Of a DNA stretch of 32,737 nucleotides, positions 2,566-29,616 are shown in pieces. Below the pieces are notes generated by a model that saw only the letters and a list, made by a program, of their open reading frames with translations, ran no database searches and had not been told where the DNA came from. The stretch is from an uncultured Verrucomicrobiota bacterium (GTDB taxonomy: Bacteria; Verrucomicrobiota; Verrucomicrobiia; Limisphaerales; UBA9464), in contig CAIMMI010000158.1 in NCBI GenBank assembly GCA_903842505.1, positions 1 through 32,737 on the forward strand, given 5' to 3'. Position numbers and translations under genes: made by a program. Position 1 is the first letter of the stretch; every line of letters starts with the position of its first letter.

Positions 2566-4722
2566 TCAATAAGGCAACGGGAAGCGGGCGGTGAGGTCGT
2601 GGACGCGGGCGCGCACGTTGTGGGCGGTGGCGGGGTTGGCGATGTCGAGGAGGACCTCGGAGATCATGTCGGCGATCTCGGCCATCTCGGCTTCCTTCAT
2701 GCCGCGGGCGGTGACGGCGGGGGTCCCGAGGCGGATTCCGGAGGCCTCGAAGGGCGAGCGGGTCTCGAAGGGGATGGTGTTCTTGTTGGTGGTGATGCCG
2801 GCTTCGTCGAGGGCGAGCTGGGATTGCTTGCCGGTGATGCCGCGTGCGCCGACGTCGACGAGCATGAGGTGGTTCTCGGTGCCACCGGAGACGAGGCGGA
2901 AGCCGTTGCGGGTCATGCCGGCGGCGAGGGCGGCGGCGTTGCGGACGATCTGCTCCTGGTAAGTCTTGAAGGAGGGTTGGAGGGCCTCGTGGAAGCAGAC
3001 GGCCTTGGCGGCGATGACGTGCATCAGGGGGCCGCCCTGGATGCCGGGGAAGACCTGGGAGTCGATGCCTTTGGCGTACTTCTCCTTGCAGAGGATCAAA
3101 CCGCCACGGGGTCCGCGGAGCGTCTTGTGTGTGGTGGTGGTGACGAAGTCGGCGTGGGCGACCGGACTGGGATGGACGCCGGCGGCAACGAGGCCGGCGA
3201 TGTGGGCGATGTCGGCGAGGAGCAGGGCACCGACTTCGGCGGCGATCTCGCCCATGCGCTTGAAGTCGATGATGCGCGGGTAGGCGGAGGCGCCGACCGT
3301 GATCATCTTCGGGCGATGCTCGCGGGCCATGGTGGCGAGCTGGTCGTAGTCGATGCGTTCGTCACCGGGGCGGACGCCATAGTGGACGATCTCGAAGAAC
3401 TTGCCGGAGAAGTTGGCCTTGTTGCCGTGGGTGAGGTGTCCGCCATGGGACAGGTCCATGGTGAGCAGCTTGTCGCCGGGTTTCAGGACGGAGAAGTAGA
3501 CCGCCATGTTGGCACCGGAGCCGGAGTGGGGCTGCACGTTGGCGTGCTCGGCACCGAAGAGCTGCTTGGCGCGGTCGATGGCCAGCTGTTCGGCCACGTC
3601 GACAAATTCGCAACCACCGTACCAGCGGCGCTTGGGGTAGCCCTCGGCGTACTTGTTGGTGAGGACGCTGCCCTGGACCTCCATGACGGCCGGGCTGGTG
3701 AAGTTCTCGGACGCGATGAGCTCGATGTTTTCGAGCTGGCGGCGGCGTTCGTTGGAGATGACTTCGGCGATGGCGGGGTCGACTTGGGCGAGACGGAGCG
3801 ACATGGGAGTTTCGAGTTTGTTGACGCGGCGTTCGTGGCGGCCGCCTTCGAAGGAGGCCTGGGTGAACGCTTCGAGAATCTGGGATGCCTGCTCCGGGGT
3901 GCTGGTCCTGGCGCCGAGGCAGAGGACGTTGGCGTCGTTGTGCTGGCGGCACAAGGCGGCGACCTGGGGATCGGTGACGAGGGCGGCGCGGATGCCGGGG
4001 ACCTTGTTGGCGGCGATGCTGATGCCGACGCCGGTGGAGCAGACGAGGAGGCCGAACCGGGCTTCGCCAGCGGCGACGCGATGGGCGACGGCCTGACCGA
4101 AGTCCGGGTAATCGATGGAATCCGTGGAGTGGGTACCGAGGTCGACGAAAGAGAGACCGAGGCGCTGGAGGACCGGTTTGAGGGATTCCTTGAGATGGAA
4201 TCCGGCGTGGTCGGACCCGAGGGCGAAGTCGGGCGGGGCTGCGTGGGCGGCGGCTGTCTCGGCGGCGTGACGTTCGATGAAGGCGATGGCGGTGCGGACG
4301 CCCTGTTCGATCTGGTTCCGGGTCTCGACGTATCCGGGCAGGGGGCCGCCGATGGGATCGGCGATGTCCTTCTCGTAGGATTCGACCGAGTCATCGAATT
4401 CGCGGAGGAGGAAGAGTTTTTCGGCCGACTCGGGATGGTAGTAGAGGATGCCCTCGGCGTGGCTGTGGGTGAGGGCGAAGATGTAGTCGGCCTCGCGGAC
4501 GAGTTGGGCCGTGACCATCTGGGAGCGGTGGCTGGAGATGTCCCCACCGATCTGGCGCATGGCGGTTACGGCGTGGGTGCTGGCGGGCTGGCCGTTGATG
4601 GCGCCGACGCCGGCGGACGCGATTTTCCAGCCGGGTTTCCCGGCGAGGACGAGACGGGCGATGCCCTCGGCCATCGGGGAACGGCAGGTGTTGCCAGTGC
4701 AGACAAACAGGAGCGACTTCAT
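2566..4722 (-). CDS. glyA: Fusion: YwlE-like phosphatase / RpiB / serine hydroxymethyltransferase
   Basis: One uninterrupted frame of 718 aa contains three enzymes. Residues 1-150 are a low-molecular-weight phosphatase with the P-loop CTGNTCRSP (Cys8, Arg14) and the general acid in DPIGG (Asp122). The Thr in the loop is the residue tied to protein-arginine phosphatase activity in Bacillus YwlE. Residues 166-303 are ribose-5-phosphate isomerase B (GSDHAG start, catalytic Cys228 in [13 protein letters not shown]). Residues 307-718 are serine hydroxymethyltransferase (ELIASEN; PLP lysine Lys533 in [11 protein letters not shown]), which makes glycine and 5,10-methylene-THF from serine. The RpiB-SHMT linker is only three to four residues. 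An internal ATG at 3804 (Met307) has no Shine-Dalgarno, so a separate GlyA product is possible but not indicated. The same activities are neighbouring genes in Bacillus (ywlE, ywlF/rpiB, ywlG, glyA). Confidence 0.93.
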
Positions 4723-6403: not shown

Positions 6404-7453
6404 TCAGCCCAGTCGTTCCCGGAGGGACCGTGCAACGGCCAGGAAGGCCTTGGATGCGGGGTTGTCCGGGTTGGCAATGACGACGGGGATCCCGAGGTCG
6501 CCCCCTTCGCGGATGGTGGTGTCGAGGGGGATCTCGCCGAGGAAGGGGAACTGGCGGCGTTCGGCTTCGCGGCGGCCGCCGCCTTCGCCGAACGGGTGGA
6601 GGCGGGAGCCGTCGGGGGCGATGAACCAACTCATGTTCTCGATGATACCGAGGATGGGAACCTGGACCTTCTCGAAGAGCGTGATGCCCTTGCGGACGAC
6701 GCCGACGGAGGCTTCCTGAGGGGTGGTGATGACGACGCCGCCATCGAGGGCGACGGTCTGGCAGAGGGAGAGTTGCGCGTCGCCGGTTCCCGGGGGGAGA
6801 TCGACGAGGAGGTAGTCGAGTTCGCCCCAGTCCACCTGGGAGACAAACTGCTGGATCGTCTTCTGGATCATGGGGCCGCGCCAGATGACGGCTTGGTCGG
6901 GTTCGAGGAGGAAGCCCATGCTCATGAGCTTCACGCCATGGGCGGTGGGCGGAATGAGTCGGTCGTCGTCGGTGACGGACGGACGTTCCTGGATGCCCAT
7001 CATCAGGGGAATGGAAGGGCCGTAGATGTCGCCGTCCATGAGACCGACGCGGGCGCCCAGGGCCTGGAGCGCACAGGCGAGGTTGACGGAGCAGGTGGAC
7101 TTGCCGACGCCCCCCTTGCCGGAGGCGACGGCGATGACGCGGCGGATGCGGGGGTCTTTCTGGCGTTGGAACTGGGTAGGAGGCTGGGCAGCGGCCGAGG
7201 TCGGCGAGGGGACCTTGACCTGGATGTGCGCGTCCGCGAGGCCGGGGAAGGAATCGCGGAGGACAATCCGGGCGGCATCCGCGATCTGGCGGCCGAGATC
7301 GGGGTTGGGCGAGGTCAGTTCGATGAGGACGCCGATGGCGGGTCCATCGACCTGGATTTCCTTCACGAGGCCGAAGGAGACGATATCGCGGGAGTAGCCG
7401 GGGTACTTGACGGCGCGGAGGGCGGAGAGGACGGCGTCCTGGGTGGGGTTCAC
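6404..7453 (-). CDS. mrp: Mrp/NBP35-family P-loop ATPase (Fe-S carrier type)
   Basis: A 349-aa cytosolic protein with an N-terminal MIP18/DUF59 domain (about 1-80) and a SIMIBI P-loop ATPase domain. The deviant Walker A is GKGGVGKST (112-120), followed by DGDIYGPS and the switch region DLPPGTGDAQL. Members of this family bind and hand over Fe-S clusters. The C-terminal CxxC pair that binds the bridging cluster in many Mrp/ApbC proteins is absent: the equivalent stretch reads ENMSWFIAPDGSRLHPFGEGGG. Some alphaproteobacterial Mrp proteins also lack it. Its position next to an Fe-S biogenesis island fits the role. The ATG at 7453 follows the peroxidase terminator, so this gene probably has its own promoter. 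Confidence 0.93.
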   Translation of the reverse strand: MNPTQDAVLSALRAVKYPGYSRDIVSFGLVKEIQVDGPAIGVLIELTSPNPDLGRQIADAARIVLRDSFPGLADAHIQVKVPSPTSAAAQPPTQFQRQKDPRIRRVIAVASGKGGVGKSTCSVNLACALQALGARVGLMDGDIYGPSIPLMMGIQERPSVTDDDRLIPPTAHGVKLMSMGFLLEPDQAVIWRGPMIQKTIQQFVSQVDWGELDYLLVDLPPGTGDAQLSLCQTVALDGGVVITTPQEASVGVVRKGITLFEKVQVPILGIIENMSWFIAPDGSRLHPFGEGGGRREAERRQFPFLGEIPLDTTIREGGDLGIPVVIANPDNPASKAFLAVARSLRERLG

Positions 7454-7569: not shown

Positions 7570-8619
7570 TCAAGGCATGGCAGGCTCACCCTGGCCCGAG
7601 GTCGGGGCGAGGGTGGCGGTGACGGATTCCTTGCCTTGGATACCCTTGCCGTTCAAGGCGCGGAGGAAGGTGGTGATGGATGACACCTGTTCGTCCGTGA
7701 GCTTCTGACCGAGTTGGAGCCAGGCCATCTGCGAGACGGCGCTGGAGAGCGACGTCACGCCGCCGTCGTGGAAGTAGGGGGCGGTGGCGGCGATGTTGCG
7801 GAGGGAGGGAACCTTGAACACCAGGAGATCCTCCTCCTCCTTGGTCACGGCGATGCGGCCCTTGTCGCTGGTGTTGGCATAAGGATTCACGGCGCCGACC
7901 TTGCGGTAGCTGTTGCCGCCGATGACGGGCCCGTTGTGGCAGGTCGTGCAACCGACCGAGAGGAACTCATGGAGGCCCTTTTGTTCGGCGGCGGAAAGGG
8001 CCTTGTCGTTGCCCTTCAGGAAGTCGTCGAAGCGGTCGTGGGTGACGAGGGTTCGTTCGAAGGCGGCGATGGCCTTGGCGAGATTGTCGTAGGTGAGGGG
8101 GTTGGTCTCACCGGGGAAGGACTTGGCGAACGCCTTCTTGTAGGAGGAGATCCCGCCGAGCTTGGCGATGACATCGACGTCCTTGGGCATGGCCATCTCG
8201 ATGGGATTGAGGATGGGCCCCTTGGCTTGGTCGGCGAGGGTTTCCGCGCGGCCGTCCCAGAACTGGGCGAGGTGGAATCCGGCATTGAGGGTGGTGGGCG
8301 AATTGCGGCCACCGCGTTTGCCGAAGGCTCCCGGGGAAGTGGGCTGATGATCAACCCCGGCCTTGCCGCCGTCGACCTGATGGCAGCTATTGCAGGACTG
8401 GCTGTCGTTGGCGGAGAGGCGCTTCTCGAAGTAGAGCTTCTTGCCGAGCGCGACCATGGCCGGGGTGTCCTTGTCCGACCCGGGCATGCGGTCCGGCAGC
8501 GGGGTCACGACCTCCAGGGCCTTCTTGCGGAGTTCGGCAGGAGCCGGGGTCTGGGCGTTGAGGGTGCCGGCGAGCAGGCCGGCCACGGCGAGGGCTGGGA
8601 TGAGATACTTGGACATCAT
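7570..8619 (-). CDS. Di-haem cytochrome c peroxidase
   Basis: A periplasmic protein of about 349 aa of the bacterial CCP/MauG family, which reduces hydrogen peroxide using electrons from small c-type cytochromes or performs related oxidations. It starts at one of two adjacent ATGs (8619 or 8616), opens with a signal peptide (YLIPALAVAGLLAGTLNAQ) and has two haem c sites: CNSCH near residue 75 and CTTCH near residue 223 (numbering from the second Met). The family landmarks LGKKLYFEKRLS, FWDGRAETL and the late APYFHDGG are present. The frame upstream to 8850 runs over the preceding gene's 3' end and is not coding. It lies 91 bp after the IscS-like gene on the same strand and may belong to the same Rrf2-controlled unit. 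A terminator follows. Confidence 0.93.
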   Translation of the reverse strand: MMSKYLIPALAVAGLLAGTLNAQTPAPAELRKKALEVVTPLPDRMPGSDKDTPAMVALGKKLYFEKRLSANDSQSCNSCHQVDGGKAGVDHQPTSPGAFGKRGGRNSPTTLNAGFHLAQFWDGRAETLADQAKGPILNPIEMAMPKDVDVIAKLGGISSYKKAFAKSFPGETNPLTYDNLAKAIAAFERTLVTHDRFDDFLKGNDKALSAAEQKGLHEFLSVGCTTCHNGPVIGGNSYRKVGAVNPYANTSDKGRIAVTKEEEDLLVFKVPSLRNIAATAPYFHDGGVTSLSSAVSQMAWLQLGQKLTDEQVSSITTFLRALNGKGIQGKESVTATLAPTSGQGEPAMP

Positions 8620-8710: not shown

Positions 8711-9976
8711 TCAATGGGCCGCCTTGCCCGAGACTTCGGCGGCATGCTGGCTGAAGGATTTGCCAATGCCACGGGGGGCGATGACGGAGTCGATGACGCC
8801 CTTCTCGAACTCATCCCACATGGGCGACATGGCGCGGAGCTTGGTGACAATCCGGGCGAAGGCCTCGACCACGTAGTCCATGTCTTCCTCGGAGTTGTCC
8901 TTGCCGAGGCTCAGGATGAGGTTGCCTTGCGCGAGGGCGTGGTCGAGTCCGATGGCGGACAGCACGTGGGAAATCTTGAGGGACTTCGACACGCAGGAGG
9001 AGCCTGAGGCGACGGCGATGCCGTTCATGTCGCAAAGCAGGAGTTGGCCCTCGCCCTCGATGAATTCGGTGGAGATGTTGATGTTGGTCGGGGCGCGGTC
9101 AGGACCGGGCACGGGGCCGTTCAGCTTGATGAAGGGGATCCGAGTGCTGAGGCCGTCCCAGAGGCGTTTCTGGAGGTGGGCGACATGGGCGGCGCGGCTG
9201 GGCAACTCGGTGCGGGCGATCTCGGCGGCGACGCCGGCGCCGACGATGGCGGGGATGTTCTCGGTTCCGGCGCGACGACCGCCCTCCTGGACGCCTCCGT
9301 GCAGGATCGAGACGATGCGGGCGCGCTTGTTGCGGTACAGGACACCGACGCCCTTGGGGCCGTAGAACCGGTGGGGTGAGAAGCTGACGAGGGCGGCACC
9401 GAACTGGCGGACGTCGATGGGGAGCCAGCCGGCGCTGGCCTCACAGTCGACGTAGAGGGGGACTCCAGCCTGGGCGCAGATCCGGCCGGCTTCGATGACG
9501 GGTTGGATCGTGCCGATGTCGTGGTTTACGTGGTGCAGCGCGACCAGGACGGTCTGTGGGGTGAGAGCGGCCTGAAGGGCGGCAAGGTTCACGCGGCCTT
9601 CGGGATCCACCGGGACGCGGGTGCAGGTCCAGCCCTGCTTTTCGAGGAATTCGACGGAGTTGACCACCGCAGGATGTTCGGTGGCGGAGATCACCAGGTG
9701 CTTGCCCTTCCGTTCATTGGCGTAGGCCACACCCTTGATCGCGAGGTTGGAGGATTCGGTGCCGTCGGACGTGAAGAAGATCTCCTCCTCGGATTCCGCG
9801 TTGATCAGTGCGGCCATCTGCTGGCGGGCTGTCTTGAGCGCGTCACGGACCCGGAGTCCGTGCTGGTGGAGCGAGGATGCGTTGCCAAAGAAGTCCGTGA
9901 AGTAAGGCCGCATGGCCTCGAACACCTCGGGCAGGAGTGGCGTGGCAGACTGATGATCCAGGTAGACCTGTCGCAT
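8711..9976 (-). CDS. IscS/NifS-like protein lacking the PLP lysine
   Basis: A 421-aa fold-type I aminotransferase-like protein clearly homologous to cysteine desulfurase. Retained are the N-terminal YLDHQSATP, TEHPAVV (His101), Asp177, the GGVQEGGRRAGTEN loop and the sulfur-carrying Cys328 in SGSSCVS. However, the lysine that forms the Schiff base with PLP (Lys206 in E. coli IscS, in SGHKIYGPKG) is Arg203 here (SPHRFYGPKG; codon CGG). The PLP-ring Gln183 is Ala180, and the substrate-binding Arg of IRFSLGR is replaced (LILSLGK). A 30-residue C-terminal tail follows the usual end. Homology and context (rrf2, iscU upstream) put it in Fe-S assembly, but ordinary PLP chemistry is doubtful. A precedent is Archaeoglobus fulgidus IscS, which has Asp at the same position. 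I chose the ATG at 9976 because the family N-terminus begins there. Confidence 0.9.
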   Translation of the reverse strand: MRQVYLDHQSATPLLPEVFEAMRPYFTDFFGNASSLHQHGLRVRDALKTARQQMAALINAESEEEIFFTSDGTESSNLAIKGVAYANERKGKHLVISATEHPAVVNSVEFLEKQGWTCTRVPVDPEGRVNLAALQAALTPQTVLVALHHVNHDIGTIQPVIEAGRICAQAGVPLYVDCEASAGWLPIDVRQFGAALVSFSPHRFYGPKGVGVLYRNKRARIVSILHGGVQEGGRRAGTENIPAIVGAGVAAEIARTELPSRAAHVAHLQKRLWDGLSTRIPFIKLNGPVPGPDRAPTNINISTEFIEGEGQLLLCDMNGIAVASGSSCVSKSLKISHVLSAIGLDHALAQGNLILSLGKDNSEEDMDYVVEAFARIVTKLRAMSPMWDEFEKGVIDSVIAPRGIGKSFSQHAAEVSGKAAH

Positions 9977-10011: not shown

Positions 10012-10055
10012 AAAACCCCGCGTTCACACGGCGCGCCGGCGAACCGCGGGGTTTT
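10012..10055. terminator. Terminator-like hairpin between iscU and the iscS-like gene
   Basis: A perfect 11-bp stem AAAACCCCGCG (10012-10022) / CGCGGGGTTTT (10045-10055). Read on the minus strand it comes 17 bp after the iscU stop and ends in TTTTG; read on the plus strand it ends in TTTTC. The T-run is short, so partial termination (attenuation) is more likely than a full stop. It would leave more iscU than iscS-like mRNA. Confidence 0.55.
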
Positions 10056-10072
10056 CGACCGGCGGGTTTGGG

Positions 10073-10501
10073 TCAGGCGCCGACGGTCTCGGCGGCGGCA
10101 ACGCGTGCGGCGAGTTCCGGGTGCCGCTTGACGTAGTCTTCGAGGGCGGCCTTGAGGGCTTCCTCGGCGAGCACGGAGCAGTGGATCTTCACCGGAGGCA
10201 GACCGCCGAGGGCGCTGACGACCTCCTGATTCGAGAAGCTCATCGCTTCCTCGATCGTGCGGCCCTTGATCAGTTCCGTGGCCATGCTGGAGCTGGCGAT
10301 CGCGGAGCCGCAACCAAAGGTCTTGAAGCGGGCGTCCTCGATCTTCCCGTCGCGGATCTTGAGGCTGATCTTCATGATGTCGCCGCAGGCGGCGGCTCCG
10401 ACCTCGCCGATGCCATCGGCGTCCTTCAGGTCGCCCATGTTGCGGGGGTTCATGAAGTGGTCCATGACCGTAGGGTTGTACAGCGTGTAGGTATCGCTCA
10501 T
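10073..10501 (-). CDS. iscU: Iron-sulfur cluster scaffold protein IscU
   Basis: A 142-aa IscU-type scaffold on which Fe-S clusters are built before transfer to client proteins. All ligands are present: Cys39 and Asp41 in AACGDIMK, Cys64 in FGCGSA, and His107-Cys108 in KIHCS. The chaperone-recognition motif LPPVK (101-105), read by HscA/DnaK in the ISC system, is intact, although no hscA or hscB lies in the window. The start is the ATG at 10501, preceded by AAGGA at a 6-nt spacing, one of the few clear ribosome sites here. It lies between the Rrf2 regulator and the IscS-like gene. The C-terminal 20 residues are an Ala-rich extension. Confidence 0.95.
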   Translation of the reverse strand: MSDTYTLYNPTVMDHFMNPRNMGDLKDADGIGEVGAAACGDIMKISLKIRDGKIEDARFKTFGCGSAIASSSMATELIKGRTIEEAMSFSNQEVVSALGGLPPVKIHCSVLAEEALKAALEDYVKRHPELAARVAAAETVGA

Positions 10502-10555: not shown

Positions 10556-10571
10556 CCTGACGTCCGTCAGG
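10556..10571. repeat. Inverted repeat at the rrf2 stop / iscU leader
   Basis: CCTGACG-TC-CGTCAGG is a 7-bp palindrome overlapping the rrf2 stop codon. Its minus-strand context CCCGCCTCCTGACG matches the direct repeat at 346-410. It has no T-run. It could be a dispersed element or a local regulatory hairpin in the iscU leader. Confidence 0.45.
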
Positions 10572-11073
10572 AGGCGGGCGCCGGTTGCACCGGCACGGGA
10601 TCCAGCGGCATTACGGGCGCCGCAGTTTCTGAAGATCGGTTTCGGGCCTGGCGGACCAGGCCGTTGGGGATATGCCGACCGGTGAGGTCGGACAGCGTGG
10701 TGCGGCCAAAAACCTCCCGGACCTGTTCCTGGGCTTCGGAGAGCAGGGCGCACAGGGCACAACCGCCGCTGTGTTCGCAACCGAGGTCCTCATCCAGGCA
10801 ACGCTGGAAGGCAATCGGCCCCTCGATGGCCTCGATGATTTCGAGGGCGGTTACTTCAGTGGGTGTGCGGGCGAGGCTGAAGCCGCCACCGGAGCCGCGG
10901 GCGGACTTCACGATGCCTGCCTTGGCGAGACTCTGAAGGATCTTCCCGAGGAAACTGTTGGGAATGTCTTCCTCGGCGCAGAGCGTCTCGATCATGACGA
11001 CCTCACCCAATGGACGGCGGGCAAGGGCGGTGAGGCCCAGGACTCCGTACTCTGCTGCGCGGGTGATCTGCAT
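10567..11073 (-). CDS. Rrf2 family regulator, IscR-like with Cys cluster
   Basis: A 168-aa winged-helix regulator of the Rrf2 family. The N-terminal MQITRAAEYGVLGLTALAR and the wing ILQSLAKAGIVKSARGSGGGFSLAR are typical. A cysteine cluster, Cys92, Cys99, Cys105 and Cys108 (RCLDEDLGCEHSGGCALC), resembles the Fe-S ligand loop of IscR, NsrR and CymR-like members, so it probably senses Fe-S status, iron, NO or peroxide. The C-terminus ends in a Pro-rich tail of about 20 residues. I start it at the ATG at 11073 (upstream GAGAA), which matches the family N-terminus; the longer frame to 11157 reads through the predicted promoter. It heads the iscU/iscS-like block and is likely autoregulated through two dyads around its promoter. 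Confidence 0.92.
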   Translation of the reverse strand: MQITRAAEYGVLGLTALARRPLGEVVMIETLCAEEDIPNSFLGKILQSLAKAGIVKSARGSGGGFSLARTPTEVTALEIIEAIEGPIAFQRCLDEDLGCEHSGGCALCALLSEAQEQVREVFGRTTLSDLTGRHIPNGLVRQARNRSSETAAPVMPLDPVPVQPAPAS

Positions 11074-25297: not shown

Positions 25298-25342
25298 GAT
25301 CAGGCCGATCAGACGGATCCGTCCGATCGGTCTGATCCGGTG
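25298..25342. repeat. 9-bp GATCNGNCN-type tandem repeat spanning the helicase stop codon
   Basis: Five units of nine bases beginning GATC lie head to tail: GATCAGGCC, GATCAGACG, GATCCGTCC, GATCGGTCT, GATCCGGTG. On the minus strand the helicase stop codon (25309-25311) falls inside the array. The 18-bp word GGATCCGTCCGATCGGTC is identical to one at 28679-28696 in the same orientation. Confidence 0.8.
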
Positions 25343-28300
25343 GATAGGATGTTGGCCAGGGCGCTGGGGGTGTCCCGGAACAGGCCCGGGGACCACACGC
25401 GGTGGAGGGACCAGCCGAGGGCTTCGAGGGTCTGGGTGCGGAACTGTTCCCAGGCGATGGGGTCTGGGGCGCGGGTGTAACGGTTGAAGTCGGTGAGGAT
25501 GCCGAGGGTGTGGGTGGCGTTCGGCGTGCGGTGTTCGAGGGCGACGTCGACGCAGAAACCATCGTTGCCCCAGTGGACGGTGGTGTCGCGCTGGAGTTTC
25601 TCGTGGAGCACCGGGCCGAGGGCGGTAGCGACGGACGAAGGGCGTCGGGTCTGCTGGATCGTGCAGGACGTCTCGGAGGTGACGGATCCTGGGGCTAGGG
25701 TGTCGGGGAACTCGTAGGCGCCATAGCAGGCCTCGGCGTAGCGGAGGTAGGCGTAGAGGTAGTGGCGTCCGGTGATGCGGGAATCGGAATCCGAGCCGGG
25801 TGCGACAGCGTATTCGGCGCGAGGGATGGAGGTCAGGATGTGGACGGCCTCGCGGGCGCGGGTGACGAGGACGTTGAGGCGGCGTTCACCCCCGGCTCGG
25901 GAGAGGGCACCGAAGTTGCGGCGGAACTTCCCGTCGGAGTCGGGTCCGAACGTCGTGCAGAGGATCAGGTGATCGCGTTCGTCGCCCTGGACGTTTTCCA
26001 GATTCTTGACGAAGAGCCCCTCGAAGGAGCCGGAACCCTGGCGGGCGCGGGCGGTGGTCAGGCGATCGGCGAAGATCGGGTCCGCTGTGGCGCGTTCGTC
26101 GAGGGCGTCGAGGATCCGGTCGCGCTGGGGGAGGTTGAAGCAGGCGATGCCGATGGACGGGGGTTGGGGCAGGGCAAGGAGGCGGGCGACGATGTCGACG
26201 GCCGCCTTGGCCTCGGCTTCGTTGCCGCGGTCGGCGTAGGTGCCGCCCACATGCTGCAGGAGGATGGGCGAGTGCGGTGCGATCCGTTCGGGATGGCCGG
26301 GGAGCGGGATGAGTCGACCCTGATAGAAGGCCTCGTTGGAGAATCCGATCAGGGCGGCGTCGCGGGAACGGTAGTGCACGTCGAGGAACGATTCCTGGAC
26401 GGCGAGATTGAGTGCGGCGGAGAGGAGGTCCTCGGCCTCCGATTGCTGACGGTCGAAGACCTCGGCGGCGGTCTCGGCGGCGGTGTCGTCGCTCTCCGTG
26501 TTGGCGGCCTCGAAGAATCGCGTGGGTGGGAGTTGGCGGGGATCGCCGGCGATGACGACGCGACGGGCGCGGAGGAGGACGGGGAGCGCCTCCTCGAGGC
26601 GGCATTGGCTGGCTTCGTCGAAGATGACGACATCGAACAGGACCTCGCGCGGGAAGACCTGGGCAACGGTGGCGGGGCTGGCCATCCAGACGGGGCAGAG
26701 GTCGAAGAGCGGATCGCCACCCTCGGTGCCGGCGCCGGTGGCGATCATTTGACGGAGTTTGAGGGCGCGCTGGCCACGGACGAAAAGGCGTTGGCGGAGG
26801 GAGGCGCCGAGCGAGTTCAGCCGACTGCCGGTGCCGGCGAGGAGCCGTTCGCGCCAGCACTTTTGCCAGCGGTGGAGGATGAGGGTGCGGACGATGGCAG
26901 CCTTCTGCGTGCCGAGGCGGCCGAGTTCGGCGATGGCGGCGTCCACGCGGGCCGAATCAATGCGCGCGAGGTCCGGGCTCGAACGGAGGCGACGTCGCAT
27001 CTCGTGGGCGAGTGCGGCGGACCGCAGCAAAGGCTGGGCGATCTCCCACGGATGTCCGGCGACCGAGACCGCTCGCAGGGCGGCGATTACCGGCGTGGGA
27101 AGCGAGTGAAGCCGGGCGATCAGGCGGACGACGTCCTCGAGGGTAGGCGAGGCGGCGGCGAAGGCGTTGGCGAGCGTTTGGGCGGGTTCACCCTGGCAGA
27201 GCGCGGCGGACCATTCCTGCCAGGCGGGACCCGTGAGGAACCGGGACCCGAGCCAGTGATGGCCGAAGTTTTCGAGGCTCGTGGCGAAGGTGGCGGACTC
27301 GCGCAGGGTTCGGATCAGCGCGGGACGTGAACCGGCGTTGCAAAGGGATTCAAAGACCGCGTCGCGAACCGTGCCGGTCGCGTCCGCGGCGAGTGCGCCA
27401 TGGAGACCGGCGAGTTCGGGTAGGCCATCGCGGACGGCGACCAGTTGCGTGTCGGAAGCGAAGGCGGGCCCGGGGTGACCGAGGATTTCGGCGCGGACCT
27501 CGGACCATTGCCAGCGGACTTCAATCGACGTGAGGAACTGGATCGCGCGCGTGGTCGACGCGGGACCCATGGGCAGGGCGAGCCGGTCGAAAACGGGCTT
27601 GGCGGCCTTGCGGCGGCCGAACGAGAAGAAACGCGTCCAGGAACCGGCGACTTCGGCCCATTGCTGGAGTGCGAGCTTCTGGCGTCGGAGTTCGGCGAGT
27701 CCTGGGATTTGCTCGCGCACCTGGGGCCAGAGATCGCGGTCGATCGGGGTATCGAGGGTGGCGGCGGACGGGGCGAGATCGGCGGCGAGCTTGAGCCAGC
27801 GGGCGGGATCCGAGCCGTCGGAGAATCCGGTGGCGAGGTCGGGATCGGCGCGGCGATCGATCTTCTCGAGCCATGCGGCCGCGTCCTGACGGAGCGTGGC
27901 TTGGGCCGGGAAGGGTTGGTCCCGCGAAAGAAAGGGAGCTGTCGGGCGCGGGAGCGAGTCGAGTTGGGATGCGAGCTGGATGCCGGTATCGAGGAACTGC
28001 CGCCAGGCGGCGGGTTCGCGTCCCTGGAAGGCCTCGGGAGAAAGGGCGAGCCGATCCCGGAACGGGTTTGTGGGCCAATGGGCCCGGCCCGCGCGGCGGA
28101 TCACCTCCTCGCAATCGGCGTCGATGCCGTTGAGCCGTTCCGGAGTGAAACCTTCGATGTCGGGTAGGTCGGGAATGGCGGGGTCGCGGAGGGCGAGCCA
28201 TTCGCCGCAGAGATCGTGGAAGGAATGGGTGCCGACGGGCGTGTGGAGTTGATTGAAGGCGGAGGTCAGTTCGGAGTGGAGCGCGGTGAGACGGGTGTTG

Positions 28301-29616
28301 ATGCGGTCCAGTTCGGCGGTGGGATCCGGGAGGAGGGGTGTCTCGGCCAGGCCGTCGATGATCGAGCGCAGGTGCAGGTAGAGGTCGCGTCGGTCGCCCT
28401 GGGCATCGTGGACGACACCGCACAGGCCGCCGAGACCCAGGGCGTCCAGCCGGTAGTGGACGACGTCGAGGGCGGTGCGCTTGTCGCAGACGAAGAGCAC
28501 ACGCTGCCCCCGGGCGAGGTGGTCGCCGATGACGTTGGCGATGGTCTGGCTCTTGCCGGTGCCGGGCGGGCCGTGGATGACGAGGGCCGGGGCGCTGCGG
28601 GCATGGGCGACCGCGAGCGCCTGGCAGGGATCCGCCTGCGCCACCGGGAACTCCGTCGTGAAGGAGGCCTTGTGCGAGGGATCCGTCCGATCGGTCGGAT
28701 CGGTCGGATCCGACCGATCAGTCTGATCCGCAGCAGGCGCGTTGAGCGCCTCCGGCTTGAGGAAGCCGGAGACGGGGACCGTCAGGGAGGCTTCGTTCTC
28801 GCGCATCCAGGCTGTGTCCCGGAGGAGGCCTGGGTTGGTGGTGGGGAAGAGACCGAGGACGGCGCTGGGCAGCAGGGTGGCCTTGGCAGGGAGGTTTTCG
28901 GTGCGGGGTACGGGTTGGAGCGGGGTGTCGGCGGTGAAGGAGGGAACCGGGCTGGTCTCGGCGGCCTTGGCGACGAGGGCGATCAGGGAATCCAGTTCGC
29001 GCCAGGGGTCCTCGCCAGCGTCGTCGGTGAAGAGCCCTTCGGTGGACTTCCCGGTCTGCTGTTCAAGCCACGCCAGCAGGGCGGGATTCGGGATGAGGCG
29101 ATCCGCACCCTCACCGACGGCTTCGAGGGTGATCCCGCTGGAGGCGCCGCGTCGGACATGGAGGTGGACGGGAATGAGGCCGACCGGCGCGAGGACTCGA
29201 CGCGAGGCACGACCGGATCGGTCGTTGGAAGGTGGAAGGGAGAGCAGCGGCAGGCCGATGTAGAGGGCGGATTCGCCGTGGTCGTTGAAGTAGTCGGCAG
29301 CATCGGCGGCGATGTCGCGGAGCTTGTCGAGGAGTTTGACCTGGCGGTTGGCGGATTGGTGGGCGGAGCGCTGGGATTCCGTCCATTCGCGTTCGGGTCG
29401 GTCCGGCGCTTCCCAGGCGGAAGTGCGGATGGGGAAGTCGATCGAACCGCGGGCGGGATCGAGGAGGGCACCCAGGATGCGGGCTGGGTCTGGACCGCCG
29501 AGAAGGTGGAGTTCGGCGAGGTCGAGCCGCTGGCGGCTGTGGTGGGGGCGGGCGTTGAGGCCGGGTCCGTCGGCAAGGCCGGCGTAGAGGCGTTGGAGGA
29601 GGGCCTTGAGGATCAT
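25309..29616 (-). CDS. Large SF1 (UPF1-like) helicase with C-terminal MTES_1575-like REase domain
   Basis: A 1435-aa protein. After an N-terminal region of about 290 aa and a TD-rich repeat (about 294-313) comes Walker A GPPGTGKSQT near 349. Roughly 640 residues of inserted, mostly helical sequence follow before motif II (VIFDEASQ, near 997), then motif III (GDPRQLPP), LDVHYRSRD, NVQGDERD and motif VI (RRLNVLVTRARE, near 1244). The end (about 1335-1425) resembles the restriction-endonuclease-like MTES_1575 domain (FCVDVALEH, LEALGWSLHRVWSPG), but the acidic residue of its usual gIEcDG strand is replaced (LGILTDF). Proteins of this build occur in DNA repair and antiphage loci (for example DUF4011-helicase-Vsr types). 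ATG at 29616 with GAGG at 5 nt; the exonuclease gene ends 7 bp before. Confidence 0.9.
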   Translation of the reverse strand: MILKALLQRLYAGLADGPGLNARPHHSRQRLDLAELHLLGGPDPARILGALLDPARGSIDFPIRTSAWEAPDRPEREWTESQRSAHQSANRQVKLLDKLRDIAADAADYFNDHGESALYIGLPLLSLPPSNDRSGRASRRVLAPVGLIPVHLHVRRGASSGITLEAVGEGADRLIPNPALLAWLEQQTGKSTEGLFTDDAGEDPWRELDSLIALVAKAAETSPVPSFTADTPLQPVPRTENLPAKATLLPSAVLGLFPTTNPGLLRDTAWMRENEASLTVPVSGFLKPEALNAPAADQTDRSDPTDPTDRTDPSHKASFTTEFPVAQADPCQALAVAHARSAPALVIHGPPGTGKSQTIANVIGDHLARGQRVLFVCDKRTALDVVHYRLDALGLGGLCGVVHDAQGDRRDLYLHLRSIIDGLAETPLLPDPTAELDRINTRLTALHSELTSAFNQLHTPVGTHSFHDLCGEWLALRDPAIPDLPDIEGFTPERLNGIDADCEEVIRRAGRAHWPTNPFRDRLALSPEAFQGREPAAWRQFLDTGIQLASQLDSLPRPTAPFLSRDQPFPAQATLRQDAAAWLEKIDRRADPDLATGFSDGSDPARWLKLAADLAPSAATLDTPIDRDLWPQVREQIPGLAELRRQKLALQQWAEVAGSWTRFFSFGRRKAAKPVFDRLALPMGPASTTRAIQFLTSIEVRWQWSEVRAEILGHPGPAFASDTQLVAVRDGLPELAGLHGALAADATGTVRDAVFESLCNAGSRPALIRTLRESATFATSLENFGHHWLGSRFLTGPAWQEWSAALCQGEPAQTLANAFAAASPTLEDVVRLIARLHSLPTPVIAALRAVSVAGHPWEIAQPLLRSAALAHEMRRRLRSSPDLARIDSARVDAAIAELGRLGTQKAAIVRTLILHRWQKCWRERLLAGTGSRLNSLGASLRQRLFVRGQRALKLRQMIATGAGTEGGDPLFDLCPVWMASPATVAQVFPREVLFDVVIFDEASQCRLEEALPVLLRARRVVIAGDPRQLPPTRFFEAANTESDDTAAETAAEVFDRQQSEAEDLLSAALNLAVQESFLDVHYRSRDAALIGFSNEAFYQGRLIPLPGHPERIAPHSPILLQHVGGTYADRGNEAEAKAAVDIVARLLALPQPPSIGIACFNLPQRDRILDALDERATADPIFADRLTTARARQGSGSFEGLFVKNLENVQGDERDHLILCTTFGPDSDGKFRRNFGALSRAGGERRLNVLVTRAREAVHILTSIPRAEYAVAPGSDSDSRITGRHYLYAYLRYAEACYGAYEFPDTLAPGSVTSETSCTIQQTRRPSSVATALGPVLHEKLQRDTTVHWGNDGFCVDVALEHRTPNATHTLGILTDFNRYTRAPDPIAWEQFRTQTLEALGWSLHRVWSPGLFRDTPSALANILSTGSDRSDGSV
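28680..28730. repeat. 9-bp GATC tandem repeat inside the helicase coding sequence
   Basis: Five full units and part of a sixth: GATCCGTCC, GATCGGTCG, GATCGGTCG, GATCCGACC, GATCAGTCT, GATCCG. Read in frame on the minus strand they give an Asp-Arg/Pro-Thr/Ser pattern (DQTDRSDPTDPTDRTD), just ahead of the helicase core. The same repeat type spans the 3' end of the gene. Confidence 0.85.

Follow-up and report, generated by a model that had tools for sequence, protein, structure and literature searches.

The window analyzed here, positions 1 to 32,737 of contig CAIMMI010000158.1 (assembly GCA_903842505.1) of an uncultured Verrucomicrobiota bacterium, carries on its minus strand, in order, an Rrf2-family regulator, the scaffold IscU, an IscS-like protein that lacks the PLP lysine (hereafter IscS*), a di-haem MauG/CCP-type protein and an Mrp/ApbC-type carrier (Table 1). 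Synteny among relatives shows a conserved cluster of the form Rrf2-IscU-IscS*-(MauG)-Mrp, and Mrp adjoins IscS* even in some relatives without an ISC-type IscU. The MauG/CCP-type insertion is present here and in a small number of relatives (L071-L073, L075) and is missing at that place in others.

The sequence-only reading had described the IscU partner as carrying all of its ligands. This was confirmed, with C39, D41, C64 and H107-C108 present together with the LPPVK motif. The best solved-structure match of this IscU is the IscU of Archaeoglobus fulgidus, by a slim lead. Co-transcription of iscU and iscS* is uncertain, because a terminator-like hairpin separates the two genes in the window; such a hairpin may raise the expression of iscU above that of iscS*. 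At the same spot, several relatives carry another hairpin, rich in G+C and with T after it, and in others the genes are separated by a 4-base gap or overlap.

Table 1. Position, strand and basis of the features at the iscS* locus (coordinates of the window)
Feature	Coordinates	Strand	Basis or remark
Rrf2-family regulator (IscR-like)	10567..11073	-	PF02082, TIGR00738; start codon inferred
IscU scaffold	10073..10501	-	All ligands and LPPVK; sole NifU_N protein found in the genome
Terminator-like hairpin between iscU and iscS*, 11-bp perfect stem AAAACCCCGCG/CGCGGGGTTTT	10013..10056	-	
IscS-like protein (IscS*), fold-type I PLP-enzyme fold without PLP lysine	8711..9976	-	Intact ORF, 421 aa, Pfam Aminotran_5
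Codon 152, His at the Asn155 site	9521..9523	-	Alignment
Codon 180, Ala at the Gln183 site	9437..9439	-	Alignment
Codon 203 (CGG), Arg at the E. coli Lys206 site	9368..9370	-	Alignment and codon reading
Codon 328 (TGC), sulfur-accepting/cluster-ligand Cys on flexible loop 327-333	8993..8995	-	Alignment; pLDDT < 50
Codon 354, Ile at the substrate Arg354 site	8915..8917	-	Alignment
C-terminal tail SFSxHAAxVSGKxAH of IscS*	8711..8797	-	Conserved in most IscU-bearing relatives
Di-haem cytochrome c peroxidase/MauG-type protein	7570..8619	-	PF03150; between IscS* and Mrp
Mrp/ApbC-type Fe-S carrier ATPase with N-terminal FeS_assembly_P domain	6404..7453	-	PF10609 and PF01883

Active site, fold and conservation of IscS*

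Active-site residues were numbered by reference to E. coli IscS from NC_000913.3. In the alignment, IscS* carries the changes K206R, Q183A and R354I and retains C328, within the motifs SPHRFYGPKG (Arg203), VDCEASAG (Ala180), NLILSLGK (Ile354) and SGSSC (Cys328). These three losses, the kept cysteine and the kept fold had already been read from the sequence, and both the alignment and a structural model bear them out. A fourth change, absent from that reading, places His152 (HVNHDIG) at the site of Asn155, a PLP contact by the E. coli annotation. Thr73, His101, Asp177, Ser200, His202 and Thr238 are retained at the sites of E. coli T76, H104, D180, S203, H205 and T243, respectively. As judged from the aligned residues, four catalytic or cofactor contacts are gone from IscS*, and the frame of the phosphate- and ring-binding pocket is intact.

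In E. coli IscS, the substitutions K206A and Q183E each abolish desulfurase activity, and R354K stays active (PMC9978102). Because IscS* has lost both the lysine and the glutamine, and Arg354 and Asn155 are replaced by Ile and His, an ordinary desulfurase reaction is very unlikely, and the earlier proposal that this is not an ordinary desulfurase is well supported. E. coli IscS and human NFS1 share with IscS* the fold, the Cys328 loop and the IscU-binding C-terminal helix region, but have the catalytic Lys, Gln, Asn and Arg, all four of which are missing from IscS*.

By profile and by fold, IscS* is an IscS homologue in both structure and descent. It matches PF00266 (Aminotran_5, class V) with an E-value of 1.2e-66, and the AlphaFold model, built from 48 aligned sequences, has the complete IscS fold (mean pLDDT 92, pTM 0.90) with a low-confidence Cys328 loop. 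This model matches human NFS1 complexes and E. coli IscS (TM 0.85-0.90 to IscS/NFS1), as well as A. fulgidus IscS (4HVK/4EB5) at 1.2-1.3 Å, with a TM of 0.97 on the target. Among the features of class I (IscS/NifS) enzymes, IscS* has the Cys in SGSxC on an extended flexible loop, and lacks the Schiff-base lysine, the Gln183 and Asn155 contacts and the substrate Arg354. In addition, it scores under every NCBIfam desulfurase equivalog cut-off (NifS, 419 bits vs 530.75; IscS, 353.6 vs 643.2), a test that is weak by itself because, of two lysine-bearing enzymes of the same genome, the canonical L001 clears the NifS cut-off (564.8) and L002 also fails it (422.1).

Homologues of IscS* are 80-93% identical throughout the family; identity is 71-82% in several other families of the same order and 41-63% in still others; a scan of viral contigs returned 70 distant relatives at 45% identity or less. 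The main set comprised 65 sequences, 46 from genomes with an ISC-type IscU and 19 related sequences without one. A search among relatives for the same arginine, suggested by the sequence-only reading, found it in 45 of the 46 IscU-bearing homologues, together with Ala at the Gln site in 43 and with His at the Asn155 site and Cys328 in every one. The equivalents of T76, H104, D180, H205 and T243 are likewise present in 46/46, and that of Ser203 in 44/46, and conservation of the pocket outside the K, Q, N and R sites amounts to 0.98. Cys328 is invariant in all 65 homologues counted. Lysine stands at the site in two homologues, L040 (G059; AAG) and L051 (G060; AAA), in which the Gln183, Asn155 and Arg354 equivalents are still gone.

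The arginine is encoded in several ways among the 65 sequences (27 CGG, 17 CGC, 12 CGT, 4 CGA, 1 AGG and 1 AGA). A misread CGG codon, which the earlier reading had named as its possible undoing, is excluded by these six codons, since all four CGN and both AGR forms are used, and the pattern lies far beyond chance. As far as codon comparisons can tell, retention of Arg is codon-independent and purifying selection is strong, with a dN/dS of about 0.03-0.17 that is rough for distant pairs, whose synonymous sites are near saturation. Sequencing error and a decaying pseudogene were thus both ruled out, by identical residues recurring in tens of species despite different codons and by full-length frames with this low dN/dS; nothing was found in favor of either, and together they retain a negligible probability.

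Iron-sulfur assembly genes and the distribution of IscS*

The host genome (5.2 Mb, 362 contigs, 95.6% complete) was searched for a second, canonical desulfurase, as the sequence-only reading had proposed, and two class I enzymes with Lys, Gln and Arg were found elsewhere (C348, or L001, and C8, or L002). IscS* as the only desulfurase of the genome is ruled out by this pair. A single NifU_N protein, the IscU of the window, was found; neither a second scaffold nor a SufB/D-type protein of the SUF system was detected in the 95.6% complete genome, with a small chance that a Fe-S gene was missed in the contig gaps. HscB, a component of the full bacterial ISC system (IscRSUA-HscBA-Fdx), was likewise not found in this genome as an HSCB_C match, using a profile that in the control matched only E. 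coli among 14 genomes. Two A-type carriers are encoded, as are three haem-copper oxidase genes, and the bearer of the genome therefore probably respires oxygen.

Across 96 genomes, this one and relatives, ISC-type IscU (called at E < 1e-40) and SUF are complementary: IscU is present in 59, with SUF missing in 55 of the 59, and SUF is present in 35 of the 37 genomes without ISC-type IscU, counts that share ancestry and do not represent independent events. In a class-wide draw, SUF was found in 165 of 188 genomes, so that the system has probably been lost here. Furthermore, nine SUF-less genomes from this draw served as a fresh test. Seven of them carry IscS* at 60-69% identity, all with PHR at the Lys motif and an adjoining IscU, and most also with Rrf2 or Mrp; in the remaining two, one of which is 75% complete, only distant homologues were found.

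The 19 related sequences that keep IscS* without an adjoining ISC-type IscU often lie beside Mrp and come from SUF-bearing genomes where this was checked. In these, the pocket is looser, with H205 kept in 14/19 and T243 in 15/19. The segments of E. coli IscS that contact IscU are Glu309-Ala316, Glu347 and Arg379-Lys391 (PMC2854127), and conservation at the corresponding sites exceeds the background among IscU-bearing members (0.91 vs 0.81), but not among members without ISC-type IscU (0.61 vs 0.62). The C-terminal tail SFSxHAAxVSGKxAH occurs in nearly all IscU-bearing members, except a few branches (L050, L046, L270), and was not seen in the relatives without ISC-type IscU; it may represent a single event on the tree. 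In one SUF-bearing relative (G093, L044:6043-8116), the IscS* without IscU adjoins a TauE/SafE sulfite-exporter-type gene.

Lysine-less IscS in other lineages

The comparison with Archaeoglobus IscS drawn in the sequence-only reading proved apt. The sequence of A. fulgidus IscS has lost the equivalents of K206, Q183 and R354, as has IscS*, and the two share the fold, the Cys loop and the pairing with IscU (4EB5, 4EB7, 4HVK; D199K variant 4R5F), with the cysteine retained and an intact IscU adjoining IscS*. The archaeal protein is reported to be without desulfurase activity (PMC7585200; Pagnier 2015 as cited in PMC8617193), and its Cys321 is described as the fourth ligand of a [2Fe-2S] cluster in complex with the D35A variant of IscU (PMC7585200; PMC9769115; Pagnier 2015 as cited in PMC8617193). 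The two proteins differ in that A. fulgidus IscS has Asp rather than Arg at the Lys site and keeps Asn155, where IscS* has His. They also differ in setting, A. fulgidus being an archaeal sulfate reducer of sulfide-rich anaerobic surroundings whereas the genome of IscS* carries haem-copper oxidases. A second archaeal example, IscS1 of Methanosarcina acetivorans, has no catalytic Lys and is encoded with IscU in one of three iscSU clusters (PMC7585200); by this description it resembles IscS* in being Lys-less and IscU-paired, but it is archaeal.

A scan of named genomes further identified Lys-less homologues in Chloroflexota, Deltaproteobacteria, Acidobacteriota/Aminicenantota, Nitrospirota and Bathyarchaeota. 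The residue at the Lys site is mostly Gln in these, with Asp in Bathyarchaeota and Ala or Leu in single cases, and Gln183 and Arg354 are lost too. IscU adjoins seven of the ten bacterial genes of this kind, in one of the seven with an Rrf2-like match between. Those seven (L085, L121, L135, L094, L109, L105 and L108), with Gln or Ala at the site, are likely annotated as desulfurases. The Gln-type members (L085, L121, L135, L094, L109 and L105) resemble IscS* in having lost the K206, Q183, N155 and R354 equivalents, in keeping the Cys and in lying beside iscU. Unlike IscS*, they have Gln at the Lys site and changes at His205 and often Ser203, and the gene order is IscS then IscU, with no Mrp neighbor seen.

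Bacterial Arg- and Gln-types may form one clade, as a tree in which they were constrained together lies 4.9 log units above the free search (p-AU 0.74). A. fulgidus IscS pairs with a Bathyarchaeota protein (94-95% SH-aLRT), and the pair lies within Lys-bearing archaeal IscS. The best tree separates it from IscS*, and a single clade of all Lys-less forms is not rejected (p-AU 0.227). Taken together, these tree results leave two options for how K, Q and R were lost together, a few parallel events or one old event. Lys-less IscS beside IscU was already known in archaea. As far as could be checked, the strongly conserved bacterial Arg-type, its near exclusive pairing with SUF loss, its occurrence in oxidase-bearing bacteria and the presence of Lys-less IscS-IscU pairs across several bacterial phyla are new.

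Possible roles of IscS*

The reading preferred here, to which we assign about an even chance, is that IscS* no longer works as a desulfurase and is retained as a docking partner of IscU, offering Cys328 as a cluster ligand while sulfur arrives in trans. As in the A. fulgidus (IscS-IscU)2 complex, each end of an IscS* dimer would take up one IscU, and the Cys328 loop would swing into the IscU site to serve as an extra ligand while a [2Fe-2S] cluster is built. Sulfur would be supplied by a canonical desulfurase (C348 or C8), by free sulfide or by a low-molecular persulfide, and the finished cluster would pass to the A-type carriers and the neighboring Mrp ATPase. The IscS*-IscU pair would thereby act as the main Fe-S assembly center of the SUF-less lineage.

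Support for a docking role comes from the four active-site changes, two of them at sites where one substitution is enough to abolish E. coli IscS activity, from the strong purifying selection with Arg retained whatever its codon, and from the conserved Rrf2-IscU-IscS*-Mrp linkage around the sole scaffold found in a genome in which no SUF was found. The complementarity of ISC-type IscU and SUF across the 96 genomes, and the cluster with PHR in seven of the nine further SUF-less genomes, also count in its favor. In addition, the extra conservation of the IscU-contact sites in IscU-bearing members only, the A. fulgidus precedent with the Lys-less M. acetivorans IscS1, and the slim lead of A. fulgidus IscU as best match point in the same direction. 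Counted against it are the haem-copper oxidases, the lysine in the IscU-bearing relative L040, the hairpin between iscU and iscS*, the 19 IscU-less sequences, and the near-complete retention of the remaining pocket, in which PLP or PMP may still be bound and used. That retention favors a bound ligand of structural use, perhaps PLP or PMP. The earlier suggestion of a structural partner for IscU thus stands in part: the conserved linkage and the contact conservation seen only with IscU favor it, but SUF-bearing relatives keep IscS* without an adjoining ISC-type IscU. Because of those 19 sequences, IscU binding is not the sole possible role, and part of the function may be IscU-independent.

An unlikely alternative is that IscS* acts as a persulfide relay, in which Cys328 would take persulfide sulfur from C348, C8 or a rhodanese and hand it to IscU, in the manner of SufE or TusA but on an IscS fold. 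The invariance of Cys328, located on a flexible loop, and the presence of canonical K/Q/R desulfurases in the genome would suit such a relay, as would the altered TusA/ThiI-contact patch of IscS (W45 to L), which fits a role dedicated to IscU. However, conservation of the cysteine is equally explained by the ligand role, the sulfur donor has no conserved gene linkage to IscS*, and we know of no precedent for sulfur transfer from desulfurase to desulfurase.

Residual or altered PLP chemistry, judged somewhat less probable than a relay, would involve PLP or PMP bound non-covalently and a reaction, either slow or of another kind, in which Arg203 or His101 acts as base. A cofactor of this kind may still be bound and used, because the rest of the pocket is so highly conserved, with the T76, H104, D180, H205 and T243 contacts held throughout the IscU-bearing set; Lys has also returned in two relatives (L040, L051), and intermediates still form slowly in E. 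coli K206A, which retains some PLP (PMC9978102). On the other hand, a Schiff base is impossible with Arg, E. coli K206A and Q183E are both inactive, IscS* is additionally without Asn155 and the substrate Arg354, and A. fulgidus IscS is reported as inactive.

The least probable of these alternatives, at a low likelihood, takes the Mrp/ApbC carrier as the primary conserved partner of IscS*, IscU having joined later; it draws on SUF-positive relatives without an adjoining ISC-type IscU that keep IscS* beside Mrp (L045, L055, L056, L057, L082, L166), but in several other relatives of that kind no Mrp lies in the stretch (L044, L047-L049, L052-L054), conservation of the pocket and of the IscU contacts falls without IscU, and the Lys-less genes of other phyla adjoin IscU, not Mrp.

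With IscS* as an IscU docking partner, a wider scenario can be put forward tentatively, with somewhat less than an even chance: a Verrucomicrobiota lineage with haem-copper oxidases may have swapped SUF for a minimal ISC system whose dedicated IscS cannot make persulfide, all Fe-S assembly then taking place on IscS*-IscU fed by free sulfide, persulfide or an unlinked desulfurase, and the multi-phylum family of Lys-less IscS-IscU pairs may work alike. It has been questioned in the literature whether the A. fulgidus IscS-IscU complex, with its desulfurase-dead IscS, has physiological meaning (PMC8617193). A pair of this type is conserved here in families of bacteria that lack SUF and in which no other ISC-type IscU was found, and this conservation makes the doubt testable. 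The docking model predicts that IscS can serve Fe-S assembly without any desulfurase chemistry, and that IscU binding and the offering of a cysteine are separable from sulfur mobilization. It also counsels caution against annotating genes of the IscS* type as cysteine desulfurases.

Two further features of the window, both on the minus strand, lie apart from this cluster. A 718-aa frame (2566-4722) fuses a low-molecular-weight phosphatase, RpiB and serine hydroxymethyltransferase, an unusual triple fusion, and a 1435-aa DUF4011 helicase with a C-terminal MTES_1575 nuclease-like domain (25309-29616) is possibly a defence-type protein.
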